Shown here: positions 32,036 through 46,600 of the stretch, in pieces
How positions within the stretch are numbered: the first letter of the stretch is position 1
Layout of the letters: every line of letters begins with the position of its first letter
The notes under the pieces: generated by a model
What the model was told of the DNA's origin: nothing
Databases searched by the model: none
The model's input: the letters and a program-made list of their open reading frames with translations, nothing else
Translations under genes and position numbers: made by a program
Source of the DNA: Hysterium pulicare CBS 123377
Taxonomy: Eukaryota > Ascomycota > Dothideomycetes > Hysteriales > Hysteriaceae
Direction of reading: 5' to 3'
DNA: 64,000 nt
Assembly (NCBI GenBank): GCA_000467715.1
Contig: AJFK01000502.1
Span: 124,001 to 188,000 of the forward strand

Positions 32036-33867
32036 CAACTACCAGTGCAATCAATGGCCCCTCACAACGTCTTGATTTGTAGAAAGTTCCACAATGTATT
32101 TGGAGTGTCCACGCATAGAATGCCAGCGGTGTGTGAGTTGTCGGCTGTCCAAAGCCGAGTGCTTTTCCGTCCAGACAGGCGACGAGGAAGTTGAAACAAG
32201 ACAGCAGGCGGGCTGTTGGTCCGATAGGTGGGCGATGACGATGCGACAAACGTAGGCCACTAGGGTCCGTCTATGAGTAAATGGCTGCCATAGTGTGTAT
32301 GACAATGAGTTGTGGTTCTGAGCGAGCGTGGCGAAGGAGAATTATAGCGAAGGACGGGGTTCTCGTGGTGGTGAGAGTTTACGCAGGGCCGGCGGATAGG
32401 AAGAAAACGGCGTGCAGCAAGCGAAGGCAATCTGGCCGCTAGGAATTAGAAAAGAAGGCGAGCTGCAGGTGGATTGGAGTCGTGGTAGGGCCACTGTGCT
32501 GCGTGAGAAGAAAATCGATGGGCATTTCAGGATGCGGAGGTGGCTCACGCACCAAGCATGCGTCCCGTCATGCACCAAAATCAAGCGTTAAACCTTGCTG
32601 AGATAGGCATATATCAAAAGCTATCACCAGGTAATCTCAGCATCGTCATTGTATTTCTATGGCATTTGCGATTTCCCACTCCCGGGCCACAGATTGCCTA
32701 TAGCTCTTTGTCGCCTGCTGTTGTCTGCGCACCCTGTATACAACAATTCCTCGACAGTCCTTTTCCTGACGACCGCCCGCAGAAGACTAAGGTGACAGAA
32801 TACGGGGCACTAGCTCATGACAGTCCTGACAGTCGAGTCGTATTTGTATGCGCTTAGACGCTTCCCGGCCAATGAGGAATTTTCATAGACAGCATTTCCC
32901 TCTTCGTTATGGGAGGCAATAGCAAAAGACTCTCCCGGGTCTCTTTCCTGCGCAATAGCGTAGAATCAGCGTAGAATCATCGTCATCTTGGCTGGGATTT
33001 CCAAAGATGAAACAAGTGATGGGAGAGGAGAAGTGGCCGAATAGGATTAGTCGGTACAGATTAAGGTAGGGTTGAGGCGCAGCCAGGTGGCAGATCGCCA
33101 GTGTCACCCTTTCGCGAGAAGCAGTGAGCGTCTATTTTTACTTGCTCGAACCATTGGCGTAGGCGTCGCTTAGCATCAATATTGGATTGGCAAAGGAGGC
33201 GACTTTCCACTGTCGAGAGAATCATCCACAAAAGGGCATAGCATGGAGAGAACGACATCCTAATCAAGCATCTAGTTTCTTGTGTGACCGTAATCATATT
33301 CCGTGGGAGACAATGACGCAAGGCTCTTTACGGCCTGCATCAACCATCTCACTCTCGCTATCCTACCCCAAGGGGGGTCATAATTCGTCCGTTTTAAAGG
33401 GCAGGTTAAAGGGTAGTAGGTCTTCCCCTACACATTTCTTTACCGGCCCACAAAGCTGAGTTAGACTCTGGGAGGAGTAGGAAAGCAAGTTTTCCCTAAG
33501 GTGAGTCGGAAAATATTACTGGATGGGATTTTCCAGACTTATGCCAGCAGAATCATGACACCTATTGTGCACCTAGCCAATTGTATTGCTAATGTGCGCT
33601 CCTTCACCGCTGCACCCTTTCTCGAGTATTAAGTGTTATGTCGATTCTCTTCCTCCAGCTTTCAAAACTCCCTCAGTATGCATCTTGACCCCTACCATGT
33701 CCGTGCATCTAAATACCCACCTAGGTACTTTTACGCGAACTGCCTGCCGCGCCGCACCTTCCCGATGAAGAACGACGTTGAAATCCTCACCCGCCAACAA
33801 ACCTTGGAAGCTTGGAAGTGCACTGTGATGTGAACTGTACAGTCGCAGTGTCATCCCCTAACGCGAC
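32036..33867. other. Intergenic, divergent 5' regions, MITE end fragment
   Basis: A 1.8-kb gap between the divergent TRP-like and amidohydrolase genes. It contains a single MITE terminus at 33373-33391. No supported gene. Confidence 0.4.
33373..33391. mobile_element. MITE terminus, fragment D
   Basis: GGGGGTCATAATTCGTCCG matches the left terminal repeat of the MITE family at 22282, 53544 and 59788. The inner sequence does not continue the match, so this is an isolated end or a heavily diverged copy. Confidence 0.45.
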
Positions 33868-35840
33868 ATGCCCTTCTCCACGCAAGCAGTCCTTGCTACG
33901 TCTTCCGCAGTCATTGCCATTGCTATTGCCTTATCAGTACTTCCCGACTACTTCAAGGTGAAGCTTCTTGCATGGCAATCGGAAACGTATTGCTACAAGT
34001 CCGTCACTACTTTGTCTTCCACTCTACCAAGCGCAGAGTGTTTTACTGTCGCTCCTAATGGGACTTTCACCCGAGTATTCCTGGATGAGATATCGTATCC
34101 CGTCGTGAAGAATGCTCGTACAGGCTTCGTACTTCCTGGACTTTGGGATGGGCATGGCCATCTTCTCCAGTATGGCGAGCTTATGCATTCCGTAGATCTA
34201 TTTGGAACGAAGTCGTTGGATCAAGTCCGGCAACGAGTGAAAGACTACAGAACAGACCATCCCGAGGCCGGAACGAGCGACCAATGGCTTAGAGGTGTAG
34301 GGTGGGATCAGGCTGCTTTTGGGGGTCAATGGCCAACCGCAGTAGGTCTATTCCAGTCTGTGCTCTTATTCCACTTCTCTTCGGGCTCACCTTTGTTTAT
34401 TGCCTTGCTCCGTTCCCGTCCGGATCTGTTTCGTGGTCTTATTTCACACCACGTAGGTCACGGCAACAAGCGCTCGGCGACTTAGATAAGTCAGCCAAGA
34501 GGATATCGCTGACTTGGAAAAGTCAGACTTTGAAGTCGATGAGCAATTGAAAGGTCTATATATCATGTTGGACCGGGTTGATGTACACTGCGTATGGGTC
34601 TCACACAGGGTGCTTTCCCTGCTCCCGTCCCCCTTGCCAGAAACACCAGGCGGGGAAACACCTGCTTCGGGCATCTTCTGTGATAATGCAATTGAAGTTG
34701 TTATGGACCACTACCCTACGCCCGATAAAGAGCGCAAGCGTCAGTTCGTCAAAAGTGCGATGCAAGACCTCAACCGACTTGGCATTGTCGGGATGCATGA
34801 CGCTGGAGTCCTGCCAAACGATCTGAAGATGTATGCAGAATTGGCAGATCAAGATGATTGGACGCTGAGAGTCTATGCCATGCTAGAGTGCGAGAAGAGA
34901 AACACGTTCTGCCCAGAGGACTCATTCAAGGTTACTCGTGACGATGGCTTACTAGATGTACGCAGCGTCAAACTATTTGCTGGTACGTAAGCCCGTTCCC
35001 ACATCGAGGTACCCGGAAACTTACTCTTTTGCAGACGGTGCCCTTGGTAGCTGGGGCAGTGCGATGATAGAACCTTACACCGACCACGACTGGTCTTCGG
35101 GATCGCTCCTCGTGAATAGCACGACATTAACGTCTTTAACCCATGACTGGGCTTTGAAGGGCTATCAAGTCAACATTCACGCGATTGGCGATCTCGCAAA
35201 TCGTTTCGCTATCGATGCGATGTCTTCTGCTTTGGCCAAGCTTTGTCCAGACTCCAGCCTTCAAGAGTGCCAGGCGCAACATCGCTTCCGCATCGAGCAT
35301 GCCCAAATCATCCATCCGGATGATCAGAAACGAATGCATGACATAGGTATAATCCCATCCATCCAACCGACCCATGCTACTTCGGATATGCCCTATGCGG
35401 AGATTCGGCTGGGAAAGAAACGAACCAGTGAGGAGGCATATCGGATGCAGTCTTTGCTGCCTCTCAATCCAATACTAGGAAGCGATTTTCCTGTGGAGCC
35501 TGCAGATGTGTTCCAGGGAATATTTGCTGCAGTCACGAGGAGAAGCCCACGTACTGGCCTTGACGCTGGTGGCGGAACAGAAGGCTGGTACTTCGACCAA
35601 GCTCTGACCAGAGAACAAGCTCTAAGAGGTTTCACTGCTGGACCCGCCCATGGCGCGTTTCTTGAAGGCAAAGCTGGCATTATTGAAGTGGGCGCCTTCG
35701 CTGACTGGATTGTTCTTGAAGAGTCTCCAGACAAAATGGATATAGAGTCCTTTCGAGATCTCAAAGTTTCGGAAACCTGGGTAGCGGGTAAGCGAGTATA
35801 CCAAAGAAGTCCTTTCAGAGGGTGGGATAAAACTCAGTAG
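33868..35840 (+). CDS. Membrane-anchored metal-dependent amidohydrolase, YtcJ-like
   Basis: Exons 33868..34345, 34500..34982 and 35035..35840 give 588 aa. A hydrophobic N-terminal segment (about residues 8-28) suggests a signal anchor or secretion. Metal-binding features are LPGLWDGHGHLLQYG (HxH), GIVGMHDAG, VNIHAIGDLAN and FRIEHAQIIHP, then GSDFPVEP near the end. This is the amidohydrolase-3/YtcJ group. Intron 1 (GTCTAT..CCAAG) joins WPTAV to EDIADLEKSDF and intron 2 (GTACGT..TTGCAG) joins KLFA to DGALGSWGSAM, both family-like. Substrate unknown; relatives hydrolyse amide or imide bonds. Intron 1 is 154 bp, longer than the local norm, with a weak donor. Confidence 0.88.
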
Positions 35841-36436
35841 GTTAGCGCAACAACCTCGTATCAAGAATTTCATCGGCCAACGGCATGAAGCCGTCTATCT
35901 AGAAAGAGCCGTCGCGAACAACATCTTCAAACCTTCAATTATGAATTGTGATTACGGCAAATTCGTCGACTTGCGGAACGGCGTTGTAGTACAGCATAAT
36001 GGGTCTCCGTCTGCGCTCAAATTAATTCCCTTCCTCATCCCCACAAGCCAGTTCTCAAGCAGCCTATCGTGCTCGACCACATCGCTTAACTACTGCCATA
36101 TTTCAAATTGTCATCTTTGCCAAAACCCTAAATAAGTCTGGTTCTCCCACTTCACGCAATACACCCCGTGCAGGCCATTAAGGTGCTCGACCAACTATAT
36201 TTTGGTTGGGTGTTTGACATGCTCACGTAGGTGCCTTACAAGGCTAAGAGCATGTGCAGTTTTCTGTTTGAGTTCCTTTAATAATTTTCTGGGATTATAT
36301 TATTGTCGAAACTCGGATGAATACTCAAGCACTCGGTCCGCAACGATGCCTCTTCAACTTGCCAGCCGTACTTGCCAGCCATACTTGCCATCACAGCTCA
36401 AAACAGCACCTAACGAAAACTTCGACGGTATTGAAC
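35841..36436. other. Intergenic, nothing recognised
   Basis: 3' flank of the amidohydrolase gene up to the nicotianamine synthase relic. Confidence 0.4.
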
Positions 36437-36769
36437 GTGGAGAATGAGATCCATAACGACGCTAAGAGGATCGTCGCTGAGATAGTCGATATTTACAACA
36501 AGATACTGGGTTTGACGGATCTCAAACCTAGGCCGGAAGTCAACGAACTATTCAGTGAGCTGGTGGCAATCTGCATCACAGCATGCAACGAGCATGTCTC
36601 CCGTATCGTAGCCAAAGATAAGTAAATCAAGCAACTTACGCCAAACTTACGACAGCCGTGCTCAAGTGCAGAAGGAGAATTAGAATTATTCTGGGCGCGC
36701 GAGATCCTAAAGACTGCCGGGACTACTGCTAAGAGAGGTTTGCGGGACTCCTTGGGGATGCTGTGTTGA
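36437..36769 (+). pseudogene. Nicotianamine synthase-like gene fragment
   Basis: One frame gives IVAEIVDIYNKILGLTDLKP then RPEVNELFSELVAICI, and, after one in-frame TAA (following AKDK), IKQLTPNLRQPCSSAEGELE and LFWAREIL. These match the N-terminal part of nicotianamine synthases: the LPDLxPSPEVNxLFxxLV block and the later LRxLCxxxExxLExFWAxxI block. The enzyme condenses S-adenosylmethionine into the metal chelator nicotianamine; some filamentous fungi have one. Only about 110 codons remain and the SAM-binding core is absent, so this is a relic. It lies in front of the threonine/purine fusion gene, with no functional link implied. Confidence 0.6.
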
Positions 36770-37064
36770 TAGTGCTCAATCTCCTGCTTATATTGTCTGT
36801 ATCACTCTTGTGATATGGGTTGAATTTACTGGGTCGAAAATATGACATTCACCATCTTGTTCATATGAGCCAATCCGTTTTAAGATTTAGCTTATTTTGG
36901 AGGGGTTCGAAGTTTTTAGTGGGGTTTATCCCGCGCACCAATATTTTTAGCTACGATATCGGACGCGTGCGAAACTCACTTTTCCGTTCCCAATTGCTCT
37001 TCACTTCCTCTCCTACAATTCGCTTTCCCCTTTCCTTTCGCATGATACCCATTTCTTATTCATC

Positions 37065-39206
37065 ATGGCCACCACAATTCGTGTTCCTTGCTCTTCCGCA
37101 AACATTGGACCGGGTTTCGACGTAATCGGTCTCGCTCTCAACATTTATCTCGAGGTCCAATTCACCATCTCGCAGCAATCCACCTCAGACCACTCGCTTA
37201 ACTGTCGCATTACCTACGAAGGTGTTGATGCAGCTTCAGTGCCTTTGAAAGCTGAAGACAACCTTATCACGAGAACAGCCGTTTACGTCCTAAGATGCCA
37301 CGGCATTCGCGCTTTTCCTGCCGAGACCCACGTACATATCAATAACCCTATTCCTCTCGGTCGCGGTTTGGGGTCGTCAGGGGCTGCTATCGTCGCTGGA
37401 GTGAACCTAGCAAATGAGGTGGGGAATTTGGGCCTCTCGAAGGCTAGGATGCTGGATTACTGCTTGATGGAGGAGCGACATCCGGACAACGTCGCTGCAG
37501 CTTTATACGGTGGATTTGTGGGCACATACTTGAACGAATTGGCTCCTGAAGATCTTGCAAGGCTGGAGATTCCCCTCAGCGAAGTGCATCCTGAGCCTGC
37601 TGGAGGCGTGGACACAGGACTTCGACCGCCCGAACCACCATTGAATATTGGGCACTTCAAGAAATTCAAATGGGCACCCGAGATAAAATGCATTTGCATA
37701 ATACCAAATTTCGAAGTATCTACCGCGAAAGCTCGCGAAGTACTACCCACCGAATATTCGCGAAAAGACGCCGTGTTCAATATGCAACGGCTGGCACTCT
37801 TGACTACAGCTTTGGGGGAATCACCCCCAGACGAAGACATGATCTATACAGCTATGCAAGACAAGCTGCACCAACCATACCGGAAAACCCTTATCCCGGG
37901 ACTTCCAGAAATTCTTCAATCGGTAACACCGCAATCACACCCAGGGCTTCTAGGGATTTGTCTTTCGGGCGCTGGACCTACTATTCTTGCGCTCGCGACG
38001 CACAATTTCGACAAGATAGCCAACCATTTAATACAAGAGTTCAGAAAGAAAGATATTGACTGTACCTGGCGATTACTTCAGCCCGCTGAAGATGGTACAA
38101 CCGTTATTCGCGATAGCTCAACTTCAAAGCCAAGTCAAGCTCAACAACCACTTACCTATGCCGCCGCAGGAGTCAGTATCGAGTCTGGTAACGACCTTGT
38201 AAAGCGGATCAAGTCCGTAGTGGGTACAACCAAACGAGCTGGCGCGGACGCCGAAATTGGGGGATTCGGCGGCCTCTTCGACCTCCAGGCTGCAGGCTAT
38301 AGCTCTCCGCCTATACTCGTTGGGGCCATAGACGGGATCGGAACGAAGGTAAAGATCGCCTTTGAGATGGGCAAGCACGATACCGTCGGAATAGATCTAG
38401 TAGCGATGAACGTAAACGACCTTGTGGTTCAAGGCGCAGAACCGTTGATGTTTCTCGACTACTACGCCTGTAGTAAGCTGGACGTCAACTCGGCAGCTTC
38501 TTTCGTCCACGGAGTAGCAGATGGGTGCCGTCAAGCGAACTGCGCACTAGTTGGCGGCGAGACGGCAGAGATGCCTGGTCTGTACCGAGAAGGCGAGTAC
38601 GATGCCGGCGGAGCTGCTATCGGGGCGCTCAAAAGGGAATCAGCCATCCTCCCAGACAAAAAAGCAATGCTCGAGCGCGATGTCGTGCTAGGCTTGGCTT
38701 CAAAGGGCGCACACTCCAACGGCTTCTCCCTTATTCGCAAAATCATCGAGAATGCCGGAATATCATTCCACGATCCAGCTCCTTGGACCGAAAACGAGTC
38801 GGTTGGATCTAGCCTCCTCACTCCTACGCGCATATACGTCAAGTCTCTTCTCTCGGCCTCAGGCCGGGGCTTGATAAAAGGCATGGCTCATATCACCGGC
38901 GGTGGGCTTCTGGAAAATATACCGCGCATGTTACCGTCGCACCTGGCCGCCGATCTCGACGCATCCTCTTGGCCTGTGCCACCGGTCCTCAAATGGCTTA
39001 AGGCGGCGGGTAAAATCTCCGATGTCGAGTTCGCGAGAGCTTGGAATACCGGCTTGGGAATGGTGCTTGTGGTTGAGGAGGGGAAGGTGAAGGAAGCGAA
39101 GGAGGTGTTGACCGAGGGCGGAGAAACGGTTTTTGAGATTGGGAGGTTGGTGCAGAGGGCTGAGGGAGAAGGGTGTCTGGTGAGGAATATGGAAGTTTGG
39201 AACTAG
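37065..39206 (+). CDS. Fusion: homoserine kinase + phosphoribosylformylglycinamidine cyclo-ligase (AIR synthase)
   Basis: One uninterrupted 713-codon ORF. Residues ~1-345 are a complete GHMP-type homoserine kinase: TIRVPCSSANIGPGFDVIGL, the ATP loop PIPLGRGLGSSGAAIVAG (~92-109), HPDNVAAALYGGF, and the C-terminal SGAGPTILAL (~300). It would phosphorylate homoserine in threonine synthesis. A ~20-residue Ser/Gln-rich linker follows. Residues ~362-713 are a complete PurM/AIRS: TYAAAGVSIESGNDLV, GGFGGLFDL, AIDGIGTKVKIA, AMNVNDLVVQGAEP, GGETAEMPGLY (~497), GAHSNGFSLIRK and ITGGGLLENIPRM (~609). That domain closes FGAM to AIR in purine synthesis, normally the C-terminal half of fungal GARS-AIRS (Ade5,7). 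Key motifs look intact in both halves. No stop or splice signal separates them. Confidence 0.93.
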   Translation: MATTIRVPCSSANIGPGFDVIGLALNIYLEVQFTISQQSTSDHSLNCRITYEGVDAASVPLKAEDNLITRTAVYVLRCHGIRAFPAETHVHINNPIPLGRGLGSSGAAIVAGVNLANEVGNLGLSKARMLDYCLMEERHPDNVAAALYGGFVGTYLNELAPEDLARLEIPLSEVHPEPAGGVDTGLRPPEPPLNIGHFKKFKWAPEIKCICIIPNFEVSTAKAREVLPTEYSRKDAVFNMQRLALLTTALGESPPDEDMIYTAMQDKLHQPYRKTLIPGLPEILQSVTPQSHPGLLGICLSGAGPTILALATHNFDKIANHLIQEFRKKDIDCTWRLLQPAEDGTTVIRDSSTSKPSQAQQPLTYAAAGVSIESGNDLVKRIKSVVGTTKRAGADAEIGGFGGLFDLQAAGYSSPPILVGAIDGIGTKVKIAFEMGKHDTVGIDLVAMNVNDLVVQGAEPLMFLDYYACSKLDVNSAASFVHGVADGCRQANCALVGGETAEMPGLYREGEYDAGGAAIGALKRESAILPDKKAMLERDVVLGLASKGAHSNGFSLIRKIIENAGISFHDPAPWTENESVGSSLLTPTRIYVKSLLSASGRGLIKGMAHITGGGLLENIPRMLPSHLAADLDASSWPVPPVLKWLKAAGKISDVEFARAWNTGLGMVLVVEEGKVKEAKEVLTEGGETVFEIGRLVQRAEGEGCLVRNMEVWN

Positions 39207-39613
39207 CCTTAGCCACTTCAATTTCCGGGGAAGTGTTTGTCAGGCATGTATGCATTTGGAAGGCGTTGGATGGTTCCGTGGCATTTTGTATGGCGTTGGG
39301 AATCGAGATGGTAATGGAATGGAATGGACGATAGAACGCGAAAAGCATCACTACAATACTTTATCCTATGAAGAGACATTCATCACAAGACAATCGTATC
39401 GTCCAAATACAAATCAATGCGATACCTGGTATTTCTGAATAAAATCATACTACTAAACGAAAGCTAAAAACGCAACACCGATCTCACATCTCCCACCCAT
39501 TACCCCCTAACTAAATTAACCTAAATTTTTTTTTGCCGGAATACTCTTTTTCTCTCGTTCGAAATTCACACAATCTAACCCACCAAGAATGTCCCAATCC
39601 CCCCTCAACGCGC
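39207..39613. other. Convergent intergenic gap
   Basis: 3' ends of the kinase/AIRS fusion and the Zn2Cys6 gene. Nothing recognised. Confidence 0.4.
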
Positions 39614-42464
39614 TCACGCCGCACTGGTAGTAGGCGCATCCAAACCCCACCCCTCGTCATCCCCACCATATCCATATCCAAACTGTCCAGCCATCTGAAC
39701 AGGCGCGGCGGAGCGAGCAGCCCACCCGGGGTTCCCGCCGAGGTTGAGATTAGACGGGTCCTGGAAATCAGTCGGATTAGGATGTTGGGGGAAGAAAGGC
39801 GGGGGAGGGGGTTGTTGTTGGTAGAAGGATGAGTAGGCTGAGGGTTGAGGGGGTGGGAAGGAGGAGGAGTGGGGGAGGGGCGGTCTAGTCGAGGGTTGAG
39901 ATTGAGAATGAGATTGAGATTGAGGGTCAGAGAGCGGGTGCTGAGTCGGCATCATGTAGTAAGACATATAATCTTGCTGCGCCAGCTGTTGATGAAGCTG
40001 TTGTGGCATTCTAGGTGGTTGTCGTCGTTTGATGGCGGGTGCGTCGCCGTCTAGCATATCCCATTTCAACGGGGCGAACGATTCCGGGACGAAAGACTGC
40101 AGGCCGGGGTCTTCGAGGAGGAGCATGCCTGTATTGCCCATGACGGTGTCTTGAGAAGGCATAGACATGGATACATCCATCCCCTCTCCCACATCCCCAC
40201 TTCTTCCTCCTCCCCCTCCCTCATGCTTCCCCCTCAAACAACTCAGCCCCCAACTCACCCTCTCAACGGCCAGTCCAGCCAATTTATGGATCCCCTTATT
40301 CTTCAGTTCCACGAAGACCGCGTACGCCATCTCGACTCTCGCGATTCGAGACAGGTCGCCGGTTTCTAGGGCGTCGAGGAGCAGGATCATGCACGAGTTA
40401 AAGGCTTGTTGGCCCATGGTCCAGCAGATCAAGGCGGCTGGGCACCGGTGGTAGAAAAAGAGGAAGGCGCTTAGGAGGGTGTGGGAGGAGTGGAGGACTA
40501 GGGCGCGGCCGCGGAGAGGGGATGAGGTGGTGGGAGGGGGCTGGGGGAAGGGGAAGGAGGAGTTTATGGGGTTGAGGGATGAGGGGCGGGATGGTTGGGA
40601 GGTTGGGCGGCCGGTTGGTGTAGTCAGAGAGGAGGGAGGGGGCGCGAAGGGGAGGATTATATCTTGGCGTTGGCGATTTAGGAGGATGAGGTAGTTTTGG
40701 GTTTTCCCGTAGAAGACTGGATGGGGGCGTTAGTGGTTAAGATTGGAGATAGTAGAGCAAAAGCAGTACCGGCAGCCATGGCATCTAAAGGCCATTCAGG
40801 AATCTCCCTCCCTTCATCAAGCCAGCTCTCGTCGAATTGCAGCGTCTCAGGTACCGTATCCCACAATGCTCTGAGCGCATCTGTGAATCCATCTATTTTC
40901 GCATTGCTCAGTCGATCACTACTTAAGATCTGTCGTGCCAAGACCGTGAACTGGTTCACGTACTCCCCTAGTCGGAGGATCGTAGGATTCGTAGTCAGTG
41001 GTTCAGGTGGAGGACAGTCTCCAATTCCACTGATACCTAAGGGTCGTCCGAGGGTCATGGAGTATTGCTGATCCATGTGGAGCATCCACCACCAGAGGGC
41101 TTGGCGAATGGAACATTCACGCAGAGGCGGGGCGGGATCAAGGTACTTTGGGTTACGATGCAATCCGATGGAATGGGCGAGGCGAATGGTGGTACCGAAA
41201 AGTGTCCAAGCATCAAGAAAGCGTCCGCTGTTGGTGAGATAAGGACCGATCATGATCAGAGTTTGGATTGCGAGTAGTGTAGGTCTGTTCATGAAAGAGG
41301 CCATGCGCAAAGATTGCATTGCAGCCGCGACTATGATATTGTCGTTAGAAGGAAAGTCGCACATGTCGCACGTAGGTTGAATGATCGAAGATCTTACTGT
41401 AGACATCTCCTTTCTTAGACTCCTTCTCCATCGCACCAGCTTCCCATTTGCCACCACACTTGTCCAAGCAACAGTTTTGAGAGCCTAGAGCCAGAGCCGC
41501 GAAAAGCAGCGCTAGCATGTCAGGAAACATTTGAGCATTCTTCTTGACATCCGACAAAAAACGCTCGACCTCGCTCGAGGTGATCTCACTTGGCGTGTGA
41601 GGAAAAGAGCACGTTTGAACGCGATGTTGGAAAGTGTCCAGATAACTCACGAGTTCGTCTTTTGGAGGAAGACACCCCACCAGAGATGGCACTGAAGCTT
41701 CCAGAGTTGCCGGCCACATCGTGGCAAAGGGAAATGCCGGGGCATCTTTGGAAGCATAGATGTCTGCTCCACGAGGCATGGCATGAGTCAGGGATTGCGG
41801 AGAAACATGCAGGCTGGCAAACTAAGTCGACTTGTCAGTTACCGTTGCGAGAGACAGAAGATTGAGTGGCTGAGTACATCGTTGATGATATTTGCCAGTC
41901 CAGGACTTCCAAAGTAGAGGTTATCAGACCATTCTTGGCCCTTGAAGCGCTTTTGTTTGGCCATTGGAGGCTTCTTGAAAGACTTCACTCCAATCTTGTC
42001 GCCCGAGGCAAAGTCCGGGGAATGCGGGCTGCCATTATCATCATCATCGTCGATGGACAGCTTGCCTGCTCGAAGCCGTTCTTTGAGACGTAAATTCTCC
42101 GCACGCAGCTTCCGGAGCTCGTACGATTGCTGAATTGGTCCATAGTCGCTACCTTCCGCAACCTGGAATTCACATTGCTGTGGTAGTCCCCTTGCGCAAC
42201 ATGCGGAGCATGGTTTTGTACGATCACACTGTCGTCAGTGAGCTCAACCCTGCATCATATGGAGATAACTTTGCTTGATATTGAAGAGGAGGTACTCACC
42301 TTGACTTTCCGTTCTCTACATTTAGTGCAAGATAGCAGCTGCCGTGATTGAGACTTTTTGCTGGCATCAGCAGTGGCGGACGACTGCTCAACAGCAGCGT
42401 GGACATTCTCGGTCGAAGAATCTGAGGTTACAGCTTGGTTGAACGTAGGTGCTGATTCACTCAT
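39614..42464 (-). CDS. Zn2Cys6 transcription factor with fungal-specific middle domain
   Basis: Five exons, complement(39614..40716, 40770..41330, 41398..41821, 41878..42228, 42300..42464), give 867 aa. The zinc cluster is LLSCTKCRERKVK|CDRTKPCSACCARG then QQCEF, split by intron 1 right after the third cysteine helix. A coiled-coil-like ELRKLRAENLRLKERL and an acidic DDDDD stretch follow. The fungal-specific regulatory domain shows ASFMNRPTLLAIQTLIM, RLAHSIGLHRNP and ECSIRQALWWWMLHMDQQYS. The last ~200 residues are rich in Pro, Gln and Ser, a likely activation region. It should act in the nucleus on CGG-type sites. Joins are all in phase. Target genes cannot be inferred; the neighbouring metabolic genes are not obviously co-regulated. 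Confidence 0.92.
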
Positions 42465-43675
42465 TGTGGAGTAGGACTGGAGTAGGTAGCCAATAAAAGA
42501 AGATTCGGTATGTAGATTTGTGTAACTAGCAGTTCTGCGCAGCTATTTGGGGTTCTCGGAGAAGTGCGGTCCAGACGGATGAGGGTTTATATATTTGTTC
42601 CCTAAGACTGCCACCGCTTCCTTTCTCTCGTCCTCATTTTCATCTTCACACATGCCACAGAATAGTAATCGTGTCAATCCTCACCCACACCCTCTATCCG
42701 GGATTCTGGATCAACGTGTGTAGCTCAAAGCCTCATTCATACGCCAACGAGCGGACTCACCCTACATGGAGAAGATGAGGCGTTCAAACTCGAGATCTGC
42801 TCCATGTGCCGACCCTACAGCGGGCACTCGACGTCCTGATTGGTGCTCATACATATGGACTAGGGCCAGCCTCCATCAGGTAAAGCGGTTCGAAGGGGTA
42901 CAGAGAATATCGCCAAGGAATACGGAGATGGTGGCGTTTGAACGGTGTAGTTCTCGCGTGACGGAGAAGGGTCCGAGGAGACGCAGAGTAGCGACCCAAT
43001 GACCTGGTCGAGCAATTGGTGAGGCGCATCGAACCAGCACGACGGGCCGATCCACCATATGAGCGGACTCCATTTCCACCCCCGGCTGGGCGGATGCGCT
43101 GCCCCGGCCCTAGTGCGTGGCAGAAAGCAACATTCACCTTCGTGTTCCGAGAGGTTGGCACCGAGGAAGTTGGCTTTCTGGGCTTGTGGCTGCGCACAGA
43201 TCGGGCTTGTCAAAGCCATTGCGGCAGATCGCCCATTCATCATCTGCAAATGCGATCCTGGAGACCCTGCATTCCTTTTTCAACTCTTACCCCACCGCTG
43301 CCTGTCATCGAACGTCTTTTGTCCGTCCATTCCGAGCATTATTTGGAATTTCTTACCGTGGGCAGAGCCGATCTCCTGCGCGGCTTCGTCGATTGTTTTA
43401 CAGCAAAAGCCAGAATCCCGCCGTCAGGGGTGCTGGAATCCTGTGCATAAGCATGCGACATGTACGCCTCAGCACCACCATGCGGTGCTCAAATCCACCA
43501 CCGCAACTGACCCTATCAATTTTTGACGTCATTGTCCGAAAAAAGTCGGTCTCAAACATGTTGTATAATGCTGTGCAACCCAGTTACCCAGCTGCAAAAC
43601 GAATCTTGACCGCCCTCGCCTGTCTCGGCGTCTTGTTGGCTAACGCCCTATAGTACACATGGAACATTTCCCTCA
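42465..43675. other. Intergenic, several overlapping ORFs but no recognised gene
   Basis: Upstream of the Zn2Cys6 gene and downstream of the RNase gene, GC-richer than its flanks. Open frames occur on both strands at 42850-43650 without family features, consistent with GC composition rather than coding. Confidence 0.4.
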
Positions 43676-46600
43676 TTATGGGTTCCGGGAGTTCGATCGT
43701 GGGATAAGGTCGCGCTCACTCGAGATCAGACGAATCGGAATCGTCCTAAGTATCCTTAAGAAGCAATCGACCTCGACCAATTTTACTTCCCAAACATCAC
43801 CGAATTCAACCTTACCCAGTCCGAGTTTGACTGGGTCGTCCATCGTAATCTGCCGAATACCAAACGTCATTTCGTGACCCCTCACACTCCCGGCGCTATC
43901 AAGCGTATTGACATCCTTAATGAAGAGCTTAAAGGTTTCTGGTATAGTGGCTTCGTGAAAGTTGAGTGCACGCATAAACAGTTGGCATTCCCAGAAAAGG
44001 AGCGCCGCTTCCTTCGTCCTTCTGATGATACGCTCTCTGGTAGTAATTCTGGGGAGAATATCCTGGATCGTCTTACTTGAGAAGGGAAGCTTGAATTTCG
44101 AATTGTCTTTTCCATCGAACTTGGCCCCTTGTTCTGCTTCAACTCGCAGAGCGGCTTCAATCTGCCAGTGGGCAATCATGTCTCCATATCTTCGAAGTGG
44201 ACTGGTGACTCTAGTATAATGGTCCAAACCCAACGTGCCGTGGGGACGCGACTTCGTTAAAGAGATTGATCTGCCATAAAACCGTATGTATTGCAACCCG
44301 ATAGTCATTGGAGGCGTTCCGTCTGCTGCTAAATTGGGCTTGAGGACCTCTTCACGGAATTTCTCGAGCTCGGTATCGCCTACGCCTTCGGGCTGAACGG
44401 TGCTTTTAAATATCACTGGGATTCCTCGCTCATTGCACCACTGCGCCGCAGTGTGGCAGGCGAGTAGCATCATTTCCGGCACCATTGCAATTTGCCGGGC
44501 AGAAGTAGCAAACCAATTCTGAAAGGGTTCTCCTATCAACTCGATGATCGGATCTCCTTCAACAAAACGAGCCACAGTATGCGAGGGCCTCGTCCAGCCC
44601 AAGCCAAAGCGTCCGTATGTTTCGTATACGTTAACTTCGGCCACCCCCTCCCCGAATTGGATGCCCCCTCGAGAGATTCGTTTACGGTGTAGAGCGTTTG
44701 CTAGCATGTCCAGAGTTGACAAGTCCTCCATATGAGCAGGTTGGAGATCTTTGGTAAGCTTCCGGCTTGGATGGGGATGTTGAAGTACTTCCCCTCCCAC
44801 AACCAATGTTGGAGCGTGTCCACTATTTGGGCCGTGAAGATATTCTGCCACAGTCGTTGGCGTTAGGTAAACAACATTTCGAACGTACCCAGGCTGGATT
44901 TTGGTCTCTAGAACATTTCCATGTGTATCTAGCCTCGCGCTAAATGTAAGCACTGGACGGTTAGGCTCAAGACTGAAGTACTGTTTAGTAGCCCACAAAG
45001 GTAGCATAGGATGTGCTCGCTCGGGCATGTAGACCGTTTCCGTCATATGTGCAGCGAGTCGGGCAATGGGGTGATCCATTGGGAAGAATGCTGTGGGATT
45101 TGCGACGTGGATATGCACCCAATACTGCTGTTCATTGCCTGGGACATCAGAAATGGATATACCATCATCGATTTCCTTTGCACCTGCATCATCAATGCAA
45201 TATACGGTCATTTGACTCCAATCATGTCGTAAGTGCGCCATTGTGTCGGTAAACCCTGGCCCTTCTATATTCTGCATCGTTGTGGCCCTGGTGTTCAAAA
45301 GTTCCACCGAGCGTGATAGCCGAGACTTTGGGAGCATAAGAGTTTCATCGTAGCTGATGCGGTTCTCGTACGGGACAAGCACACCAATTTCCTGCAAAAA
45401 AAGATGTCCAGTTGGCCTTTCGGGAACATGACTCGTATAGCATCTCGTGGCCGTCAGTATCACCGGTGCAAGGGAATTGAGAGTATGAATGCCCCGGAAT
45501 TTCCCCACTAATGACCAAGATTCAATGAACGAAATGAGGAGTCGGTCAGTATCTGTGAACTCAATGGTCGAAAAAGTACGCATGGCGGAAGAAGTCGGGC
45601 TGATTGGATAACGATGTCTGCTTGGACCAACGCAACCACTGGTAGTTGGTTCTCGGAACTTACGGCTTTGCAAAATGAGCTCCTTGGACTTTTCCACGAA
45701 TTGCGATACAAATACTGCCCCTTGGCTATATTGCTCTGGTTTCAGAAGTGATTGGTGGGCGGATTCTTTTTTTGCACGCGCCGCAAGATATTCTTTGTAG
45801 TCGCGAATCCAGCTTCGAACAAGCTCGGTAGCCTCCACCTCTTTCTTAGACCGGATTGTATAAAGGCCTGTCACGCGTTGAACTCGCTTATCGGAGTGAA
45901 ACTTGAACCCAGCATGTTGTAGTGCCTTCCGCACCGCAAGTAAAATAGCTGGTGGTGGATCGGAACTCTTGTCTACCATCCAGAAAAGCAGCGACTTCGT
46001 GATATTGTGCAATGACATTGTTACGGATGTCTCGTCCCTCGCGAGCTTATCAAAGGCGTTATCGAGAATCGACGCATTTTGGCGATATATAGACTCCGAT
46101 TCGCGCCAAAGATCGAGAAGTTGTTTCGTAATTTTCGCACCTACTTCCCGAGGAACATTTAAGTCTACGGGTTGCGGCCTGTCGATGATGCCGTGAATTT
46201 CCTCTTCGGTTTCGGTAGTCGGTAAGAAAGGCATTATATCCTCTAGCAAAGACGGGTCTAAGAACTTAGGTATGACGAAGGTGATGTTAGTGCTTTCCCT
46301 GTGCATCCATTTGCCATCCATGGCGTAGAATTGGCAATTGCGCTGGAACTGGCGAACAACAACCGCAAGCGTAGGCTCACGGTCAGGAAACCTCGGATGC
46401 AATCAGCTTTGCAGAATAACAGCATCTTTGAGCTGAAAGGAAGATATACCGGATTTCAACCACATCGCCAGGATACATTAATAGATTCATTGTATCTATA
46501 TCTTCCGTTTCCTCATAATCGGGCGCTTCATCATATATTTCAGATGAAGAAACGTCGGATTGCGTAAGATTATTTGTATTATCTTTTCCTTGCGGATAGC

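Follow-up and report, generated by a model that had tools for sequence, protein, structure and literature searches.

The fungus Hysterium pulicare CBS 123377 encodes a homoserine kinase (HSK) and an AIR synthase (AIRS, PurM) in one uninterrupted reading frame. We consider it about 85% probable that the product is a genuine bifunctional HSK-AIRS enzyme whose AIRS moved from GARS-AIRS to HSK, probably once and by way of neighboring genes.

RESULTS

One frame encodes a homoserine kinase and an AIR synthase

The DNA analyzed (the window) is a stretch of 64,000 nucleotides, and all positions refer to it unless another contig is named. The fused frame lies at 37065 to 39206 on the plus strand and translates as 713 codons closed by one stop, free of introns; it agrees with the assembly and is not broken by stops. 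Among the 21 frames of at least 100 amino acids that overlap positions 33000 to 44000, the only longer one is a 908-amino-acid frame at 43676 to 46402 on the other strand.

Families were assigned with NCBIfam equivalog models, which have their own curated cut-offs, and with Pfam. The HSK half scores 351.2 bits against the thrB equivalog TIGR00191 (cut-off, 168.25 bits; residues 4 to 349 on model positions 2 to 303 of 304), and the AIRS half scores 399.6 bits against the purM equivalog TIGR00878 (cut-off, 236.35 bits; residues 363 to 697 on model positions 1 to 331 of 332). Both scores are far above the cut-offs, which bears out the preliminary description of a single 713-codon frame with a homoserine kinase followed by PurM/AIRS. 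Pfam recognizes GHMP_kinases_N, GHMP_kinases_C, AIRS, and AIRS_C in the fused protein, GHMP_kinases_C at 21.7 bits and hence barely above its cut-off of 21; the Pfam and NCBIfam profile searches found no GARS domain in it. The HSK half matches solved HSKs by sequence, the AIRS half finds solved AIR synthases (best by phmmer, 347 bits to 7lvp), and solved structures of both enzymes are also matched by fold, although much of the AIRS N-terminal region of the AlphaFold2 model used is of low confidence. The parts of the frame and its end are the following.

37065..38111 (+), homoserine kinase half, GHMP kinase fold, residues 1 to 349 (TIGR00191, 351 bits; Pfam GHMP N and C; 66 to 76% identity to stand-alone fungal HSKs)
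37353..37388 (+), GHMP motif 2, PLGRGLGSSGAA, residues 97 to 108 (PLGRGLGSS and the last Ala identical in 121/121 fusions; G106 in 60, A107 in 114)
38112..38150 (+), variable linker containing Ser and Gln, residues 350 to 362 (column identity, length spread, low pLDDT)
38151..39203 (+), AIR synthase (PurM) half, residues 363 to 713 (TIGR00878, 400 bits; Pfam AIRS and AIRS_C; phmmer, 347 bits to 7lvp)
38331..38348 (+), AIRS signature DGIGTK, residues 423 to 428 (D, G, G, T, and K identical in 121/121 fusions; I in 109)
39204..39206 (+), TAG stop codon of the fused frame (translation)
39438..39443 (+), AATAAA hexamer, a consensus match only (the sole AATAAA/ATTAAA on this strand within 37065 to 39700)

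Third-position GC differs along 37065 to 39203, being 0.49 in the HSK half and 0.61 in the AIRS half. Directly upstream of the fusion, a frame at 36317 to 36625 on the plus strand resembles the beginning of nicotianamine synthase (39 bits to PF03059). Downstream, on the minus strand, lie a fungal-specific transcription factor domain (40678 to 41457) and a cyt-4-like RNB protein (43676 to 46402). Scans of the whole window found no Rfam families and no tRNAs.

Conserved motifs on either side of a variable linker

Motifs and linker were compared in an alignment of 121 fusions, that is, the window protein and its 120 listed homologues. The HSK half has three GHMP motifs, at residues 8 to 19, 97 to 108, and 300 to 306; their positions are identical in 120 to 121 of the 121 fusions except for C9 (116), I14 (110), G106 (60), and A107 (114). 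Over both halves, most motif positions are identical in 118 to 121 of the 121 fusions, although G106 (60), A549 (18), I557 (40), and L616 (80) are among those that vary more. The preliminary description had suggested that both halves look complete and may be bifunctional, and the retention of the main motifs of both in a conserved fusion agrees with this. The fused protein is apparently a conserved, bifunctional HSK-AIRS enzyme; we infer that both halves are active and that the frame is expressed as a single transcript.

The linker, counted after LLQPAEDG and up to LTYA, spans 12 to 30 residues over the 121 fusions, with 18 in the window protein and 16 as the commonest length (55/121). Mean column identity is 0.42 over residues 350 to 362, compared with 0.88 in HSK and 0.84 in AIRS, and the presence of both Ser and Gln in this span matches the short Ser/Gln linker reported initially. 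An AlphaFold2 model, made from an alignment of 43 of the 121 fusions and 21 of the 120 rows of a search with the HSK half, gives pLDDT values below 50 for residues 351 to 361 and low values, with shallow alignment, for most of residues 390 to 520. Being poor over most of the latter span, the model is not the basis for any domain-interface argument. Foldseek matches PurM structures with a best E-value of 9.1e−21 and TM scores by target length of only 0.48 to 0.62 in the rows shown, the model being weak at residues 390 to 520. A linker this variable and of such low predicted confidence would fit a flexible tether between two independent enzymes.

The same two properties could be expected if the continuous frame gave rise to two separate products, by transcription, splicing, internal initiation, or proteolysis, and in 42 of the 121 fusions the first AIRS residue is Met, so that an AIRS start of its own is conceivable there. 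However, residues 265 to 434 of the window protein include no Met, and its AIRS therefore lacks an ATG start of its own in that span. On the plus strand between 37065 and 39700, no AATAAA or ATTAAA occurs before 39438, that is, none ahead of the stop codon. Moreover, the halves remain in frame across varying linkers in 121/121 fusions, a count that is made on predicted proteins from a length-limited search and holds partly by construction. We consider separate products unlikely and a single bifunctional protein the better account of the frame.

The fusion is common among the listed homologues

In fungi, AIRS is commonly known as the C-terminal half of Ade5,7. A homologue search with the whole protein gave 5,660 matches among 8,000 scored candidates of 0.55 to 1.75 times the query length, a length window that favors full-length fusions. 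The 120 of these 5,660 matches that were listed all carry the GHMP and both AIRS domains (120/120), at 68 to 82% identity. Names among them include Glonium, Lophium, Delitschia, Parastagonospora, Alternaria, Lasiodiplodia, Phyllosticta, Aulographum, Microthyrium, Tothia, Coniosporium, and Aureobasidium. Five names were checked in the taxonomy, and all five belong to the Dothideomycetes, in the orders Dothideales, Venturiales, Microthyriales, Aulographales, and Mycosphaerellales (the last via the genus name Oleoguttula only); the remaining named carriers are presumably Dothideomycetes as well, and many rows are nameless.

For the unfused state we searched with the HSK half on its own, a query that lets in proteins of about 190 to 610 amino acids, and with a GARS-AIRS probe made by joining the GARS of H. 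pulicare to its AIRS. Among the 120 HSK-half matches listed, three (P0144, P0173, and P0183) are fragments of fusions and none exceeds 76% identity; the other named rows we take to belong to non-Dothideomycete classes. All 120 listed matches of the GARS-AIRS probe have GARS and AIRS domains (120/120), at no more than 67% identity, and no Dothideomycete name was recognized among them. A close Dothideomycete stand-alone HSK or GARS-AIRS should appear among the first rows of these two 120-row lists, and none was seen there. The initial statement that fungi use GARS-AIRS and a stand-alone HSK thus holds for the non-Dothideomycete fungi listed in both searches. The homologue searches, of the kind that had been proposed, place the fusion in 120/120 listed whole-protein homologues and show the listed relatives outside the class to be separate HSK and GARS-AIRS. 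A tblastn search of plasmids returned 93 records with partial matches only, 0 of them covering 80% of the query, and a search of viral contigs with an outgroup HSK, made for gene order, found no relative.

Public records name these fusions either "Homoserine kinase" or "phosphoribosylformylglycinamidine cyclo-ligase-like protein." Since each name covers one half only, the fusion is hidden in the databases. Many records of stand-alone HSKs, among them P0134, P0141, and P0145, are named "Trihydroxynaphthalene reductase," probably because both enzymes go by the gene name THR1 and automatic annotation spread the confusion. The protein P0103 (Bipolaris maydis, 867 amino acids) has a phosphoribosyltransferase domain after a truncated AIRS_C and is likely a merged gene model.

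The fused AIRS is apparently not a second copy

The assembly of H. pulicare is a draft of 37.2 Mb in 596 contigs. The HSK model matches it once, at the fusion. AIRS_C matches it at the fusion and at two sites within a single frame of contig C26, an FGAM synthase (1,379 bits over the 1,117 residues available). GARS is found on contig C401 as a protein model of 446 amino acids after removal of one 48-bp intron; its two exons cover positions 1 to 264 and 270 to 424 of the 425-position purD model, and the protein ends just past KDIAGRAL, where the GARS-AIRS rows continue into their linker. The stretches retrieved from around both GARS-like loci of this assembly gave no match to AIRS or HSK.

The fusion is the only HSK, and the only AIRS besides FGAM synthase, found in this draft assembly, and in this single draft of 596 contigs GARS stands alone. 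Separate Thr1 and Ade5,7, which the preliminary description had advised looking for in the same genome, were not found there. Its idea that the kinase gene had captured a second AIRS copy is not supported, because no other AIRS but FGAM synthase was found in this assembly and GARS has no AIRS tail; by the same evidence, it is the genome's own AIRS that sits on HSK. An ancient duplication of AIRS followed by loss is possible.

A second GARS-like gene (G000:C543; L011, 4175 to 5653, minus strand; L006, 904 to 2382, minus strand) is 30 to 40% identical to the GARS on C401. The match breaks near GARS residue 271, the intron site of the C401 gene, and motifs are altered (e.g., YNVRFGDPE to FVPSFGDPE). 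The gene looks like a diverged, possibly inactive paralogue.

The AIRS half is kin to that of Pezizomycotina GARS-AIRS

The AIRS half shares 51 to 69% identity with the corresponding part of the GARS-AIRS rows, and the best prokaryotic AIRS loci, mostly from Rhizobiales, are 53 to 59% identical over nearly the whole half. Three AIRS trees were calculated from rows picked by hand for named, spread-out organisms. The first contained 22 of the 121 fusions (window protein included), 23 of the 120 GARS-AIRS rows, and 8 of the 80 bacterial loci; the second was the same without the fish row; the third lacked both the fish and Iodidimonas and included two solved AIR synthases, from Cryptococcus and Neisseria. 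The sampled fusion AIRS (22/22) form one clade in the three trees (98/91, 98/90, and 98/93). In the third tree, the fusions join 22 Pezizomycotina GARS-AIRS in a single clade (100/100), outside which lie the 7 alphaproteobacteria, Neisseria, and Cryptococcus. These trees show the AIRS half to be kin to Pezizomycotina GARS-AIRS and, since the fusion clade joins the latter and not the bacteria, suggest that AIRS changed its partner by descent.

The exact branching is less firm. The best trees place the fusions inside the Pezizomycotina GARS-AIRS, and a branch separates that group from all other rows in 0% and 8% of the bootstrap trees (second and third analyses); a tree with the fusions outside was not rejected (AU test, P = 0.316, fish row removed). 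Cryptococcus AIRS (7lvp) lies outside a clade of alphaproteobacteria and Pezizomycotina AIRS (98/74 in the third tree; long branches). In the first tree the fish AIRS (P0267) groups with a bacterium, also on long branches. Two AU tests against a bacterial origin, both with P = 0.0004, were discounted: one forced the fish row among the fungi, although the unconstrained tree pairs it with a bacterium, and the repeat with Cryptococcus and Neisseria forced Cryptococcus inside, although it lies outside in the unconstrained tree. The argument uses the 100/100 clade in their place. In a tree of the GARS from C401 and 23 of the 120 GARS-AIRS rows, this GARS branches among the corresponding parts of Pezizomycotina GARS-AIRS, with no firmly placed sister.

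The Rhizobiales loci, with their 53 to 59% identity over nearly the whole half, raise the question of whether a separate horizontal transfer from alphaproteobacteria (Rhizobiales-like) brought in the fused AIRS and replaced the native domain, and the unrejected tree with the fusions outside the Pezizomycotina GARS-AIRS (P = 0.316) would accommodate such an event. However, GARS-AIRS is closer (up to 69% identity), and the fusions and 22 Pezizomycotina GARS-AIRS group at 100/100 apart from 8 bacteria and Cryptococcus, which makes the transfer very improbable compared with descent from a fungal GARS-AIRS. It would be just as surprising if one half were catalytically dead and the fusion now served as a regulator or scaffold: across both halves, 118 to 121 of the 121 fusions agree at most motif positions, and no replacement HSK or AIRS was found in this assembly.

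The HSK half and the question of a single origin

The HSK half, 66 to 76% identical to stand-alone fungal HSKs, gives a less simple picture. In the best tree of 19 of the 121 fusions and 23 of the 120 HSK-half rows, the fusion label changes 5 times and the fusions are not one clade; their monophyly was rejected (AU test, P = 0.008). Once Aulographum is left out, monophyly is not rejected (P = 0.218), and the conflict therefore comes mainly from this fusion. In Aulographum hederae (P0106), the HSK half groups with Pseudogymnoascus, Xylona, and Sarea and the AIRS half with the other fusions. The same HSK data reject the Eurotiomycetes (P = 0.035) and do not reject the Leotiomycetes (P = 0.137). 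We read the conflict as a sign that the HSK half is a poor marker, the alternative being that HSK was replaced in Aulographum or some other lineage. The HSK tree is weak. The single origin stands on the AIRS half, and we infer that the fusion most likely arose once, early in the class.

Joints of the fusion and neighboring genes in outgroups

The joints lie at natural ends. An end motif, [DNE]GxxV, is present in 101 of 117 stand-alone HSKs and absent from 16; 92 of the 101 stop 2 to 7 residues past the motif, where the fusion linker begins, and 9 extend 11 to 21 residues beyond it. The entry point into AIRS is the same in the fusion as in the 6 GARS-AIRS rows compared.

Twelve named species, matched by eye, occur in both the HSK and the GARS-AIRS 120-row lists and were used to look at gene neighborhood. 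The longest contig has the same size for HSK and GARS-AIRS in 9 of the 12 (Xylogone, Chaenotheca, Venustampulla, Phlyctema, Glutinoglossum, Diplocarpon coronariae, Thelocarpon, Xylographa, and Tricladium), including contigs of 15,844 and 27,399 bases, while some shared contigs are megabases long, where sharing means little. In Sarea, Xylona, and Trichoglossum the two genes are on contigs of different size. Locus tags are consecutive in two of the three species showing both (PZA11_002542/002543 in Diplocarpon coronariae and MMC34_005051/005050 in Xylographa) and not in Trichoglossum. The shared contigs and consecutive tags suggest that HSK and GARS-AIRS were neighbors before the fusion, and neighboring genes probably gave rise to it. 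The apparent adjacency in some outgroups, like the likely merged model in Bipolaris (P0103), is also what an assembly or gene-model artefact joining neighbors would draw on, but this is hardly credible for a frame that is uninterrupted in raw DNA without the need for an intron model, recurs in many species, and has no other AIRS or HSK beside it in the assembly search.

DISCUSSION

We propose that in the Dothideomycete lineage AIRS left GARS-AIRS (Ade5,7) and became the tail of HSK, at a time when the HSK and GARS-AIRS genes would have been adjacent. A simple route would be that GARS was lost from its place between HSK and AIRS and retained elsewhere. Alternatively, duplication with reciprocal loss may have brought a complete HSK beside a complete AIRS. 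In the resulting protein, the N-terminal half is predicted to phosphorylate homoserine in the threonine pathway and the C-terminal half to close FGAM to AIR in the purine pathway, the two enzyme domains presumably being carried on a flexible linker.

Why would a cell join these two enzymes? Any metabolic benefit of the fusion is speculative. Threonine can feed glycine, and GARS consumes glycine. It is possible, though rather doubtful, that the exchange of partners, AIRS off GARS and onto HSK, is class-wide and that the amount, location, or oligomeric state of the shared protein couples the pathways. Deletion of the gene is predicted to remove both enzymes and hence to create a double requirement for threonine and adenine. 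The fusion is a candidate defining character of the Dothideomycetes and a readable case of domain exchange, in which the neighbors in outgroups suggest how the fusion happened.

The preliminary description would have counted an already described and common fusion as a refutation. The fusion is indeed common, being present in 120/120 listed homologues; a description of it was not found in a search of mostly open-access literature. A survey of fungal gene fusions may list it. We rate the finding as a new pairing of known enzymes with notable breadth, the ancestral pairing not being found in this genome.

Among known systems, the closest is GARS-AIRS (yeast Ade5,7; fungal "ADE1"), which like the fusion has a C-terminal AIRS of the same kin and with the same domain boundary. 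There, however, the N-terminal partner is GARS, whereas in the fusion it is homoserine kinase, and GARS is a separate protein of 446 amino acids encoded on another contig. Stand-alone fungal homoserine kinase (Thr1) aligns over nearly the whole HSK half at 66 to 76% identity but, unlike the fusion, has no full AIRS past the natural HSK C terminus. In the vertebrate trifunctional GARS-AIRS-GART protein (P0267), AIRS likewise lies within a multifunctional protein; GARS/AIRS/GART multifunctional enzymes are described in passages of PMC10912719 that use the word "homoserine" 0 times. The partners of AIRS there belong to the purine pathway, while the partner in the fusion comes from another pathway. 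Basidiomycetes have a natural protein that also unites enzymes of two pathways, the spermidine synthase-saccharopine reductase fusion (PMC10051792); it is made of enzymes unrelated to HSK and AIRS and belongs to a different group of fungi.
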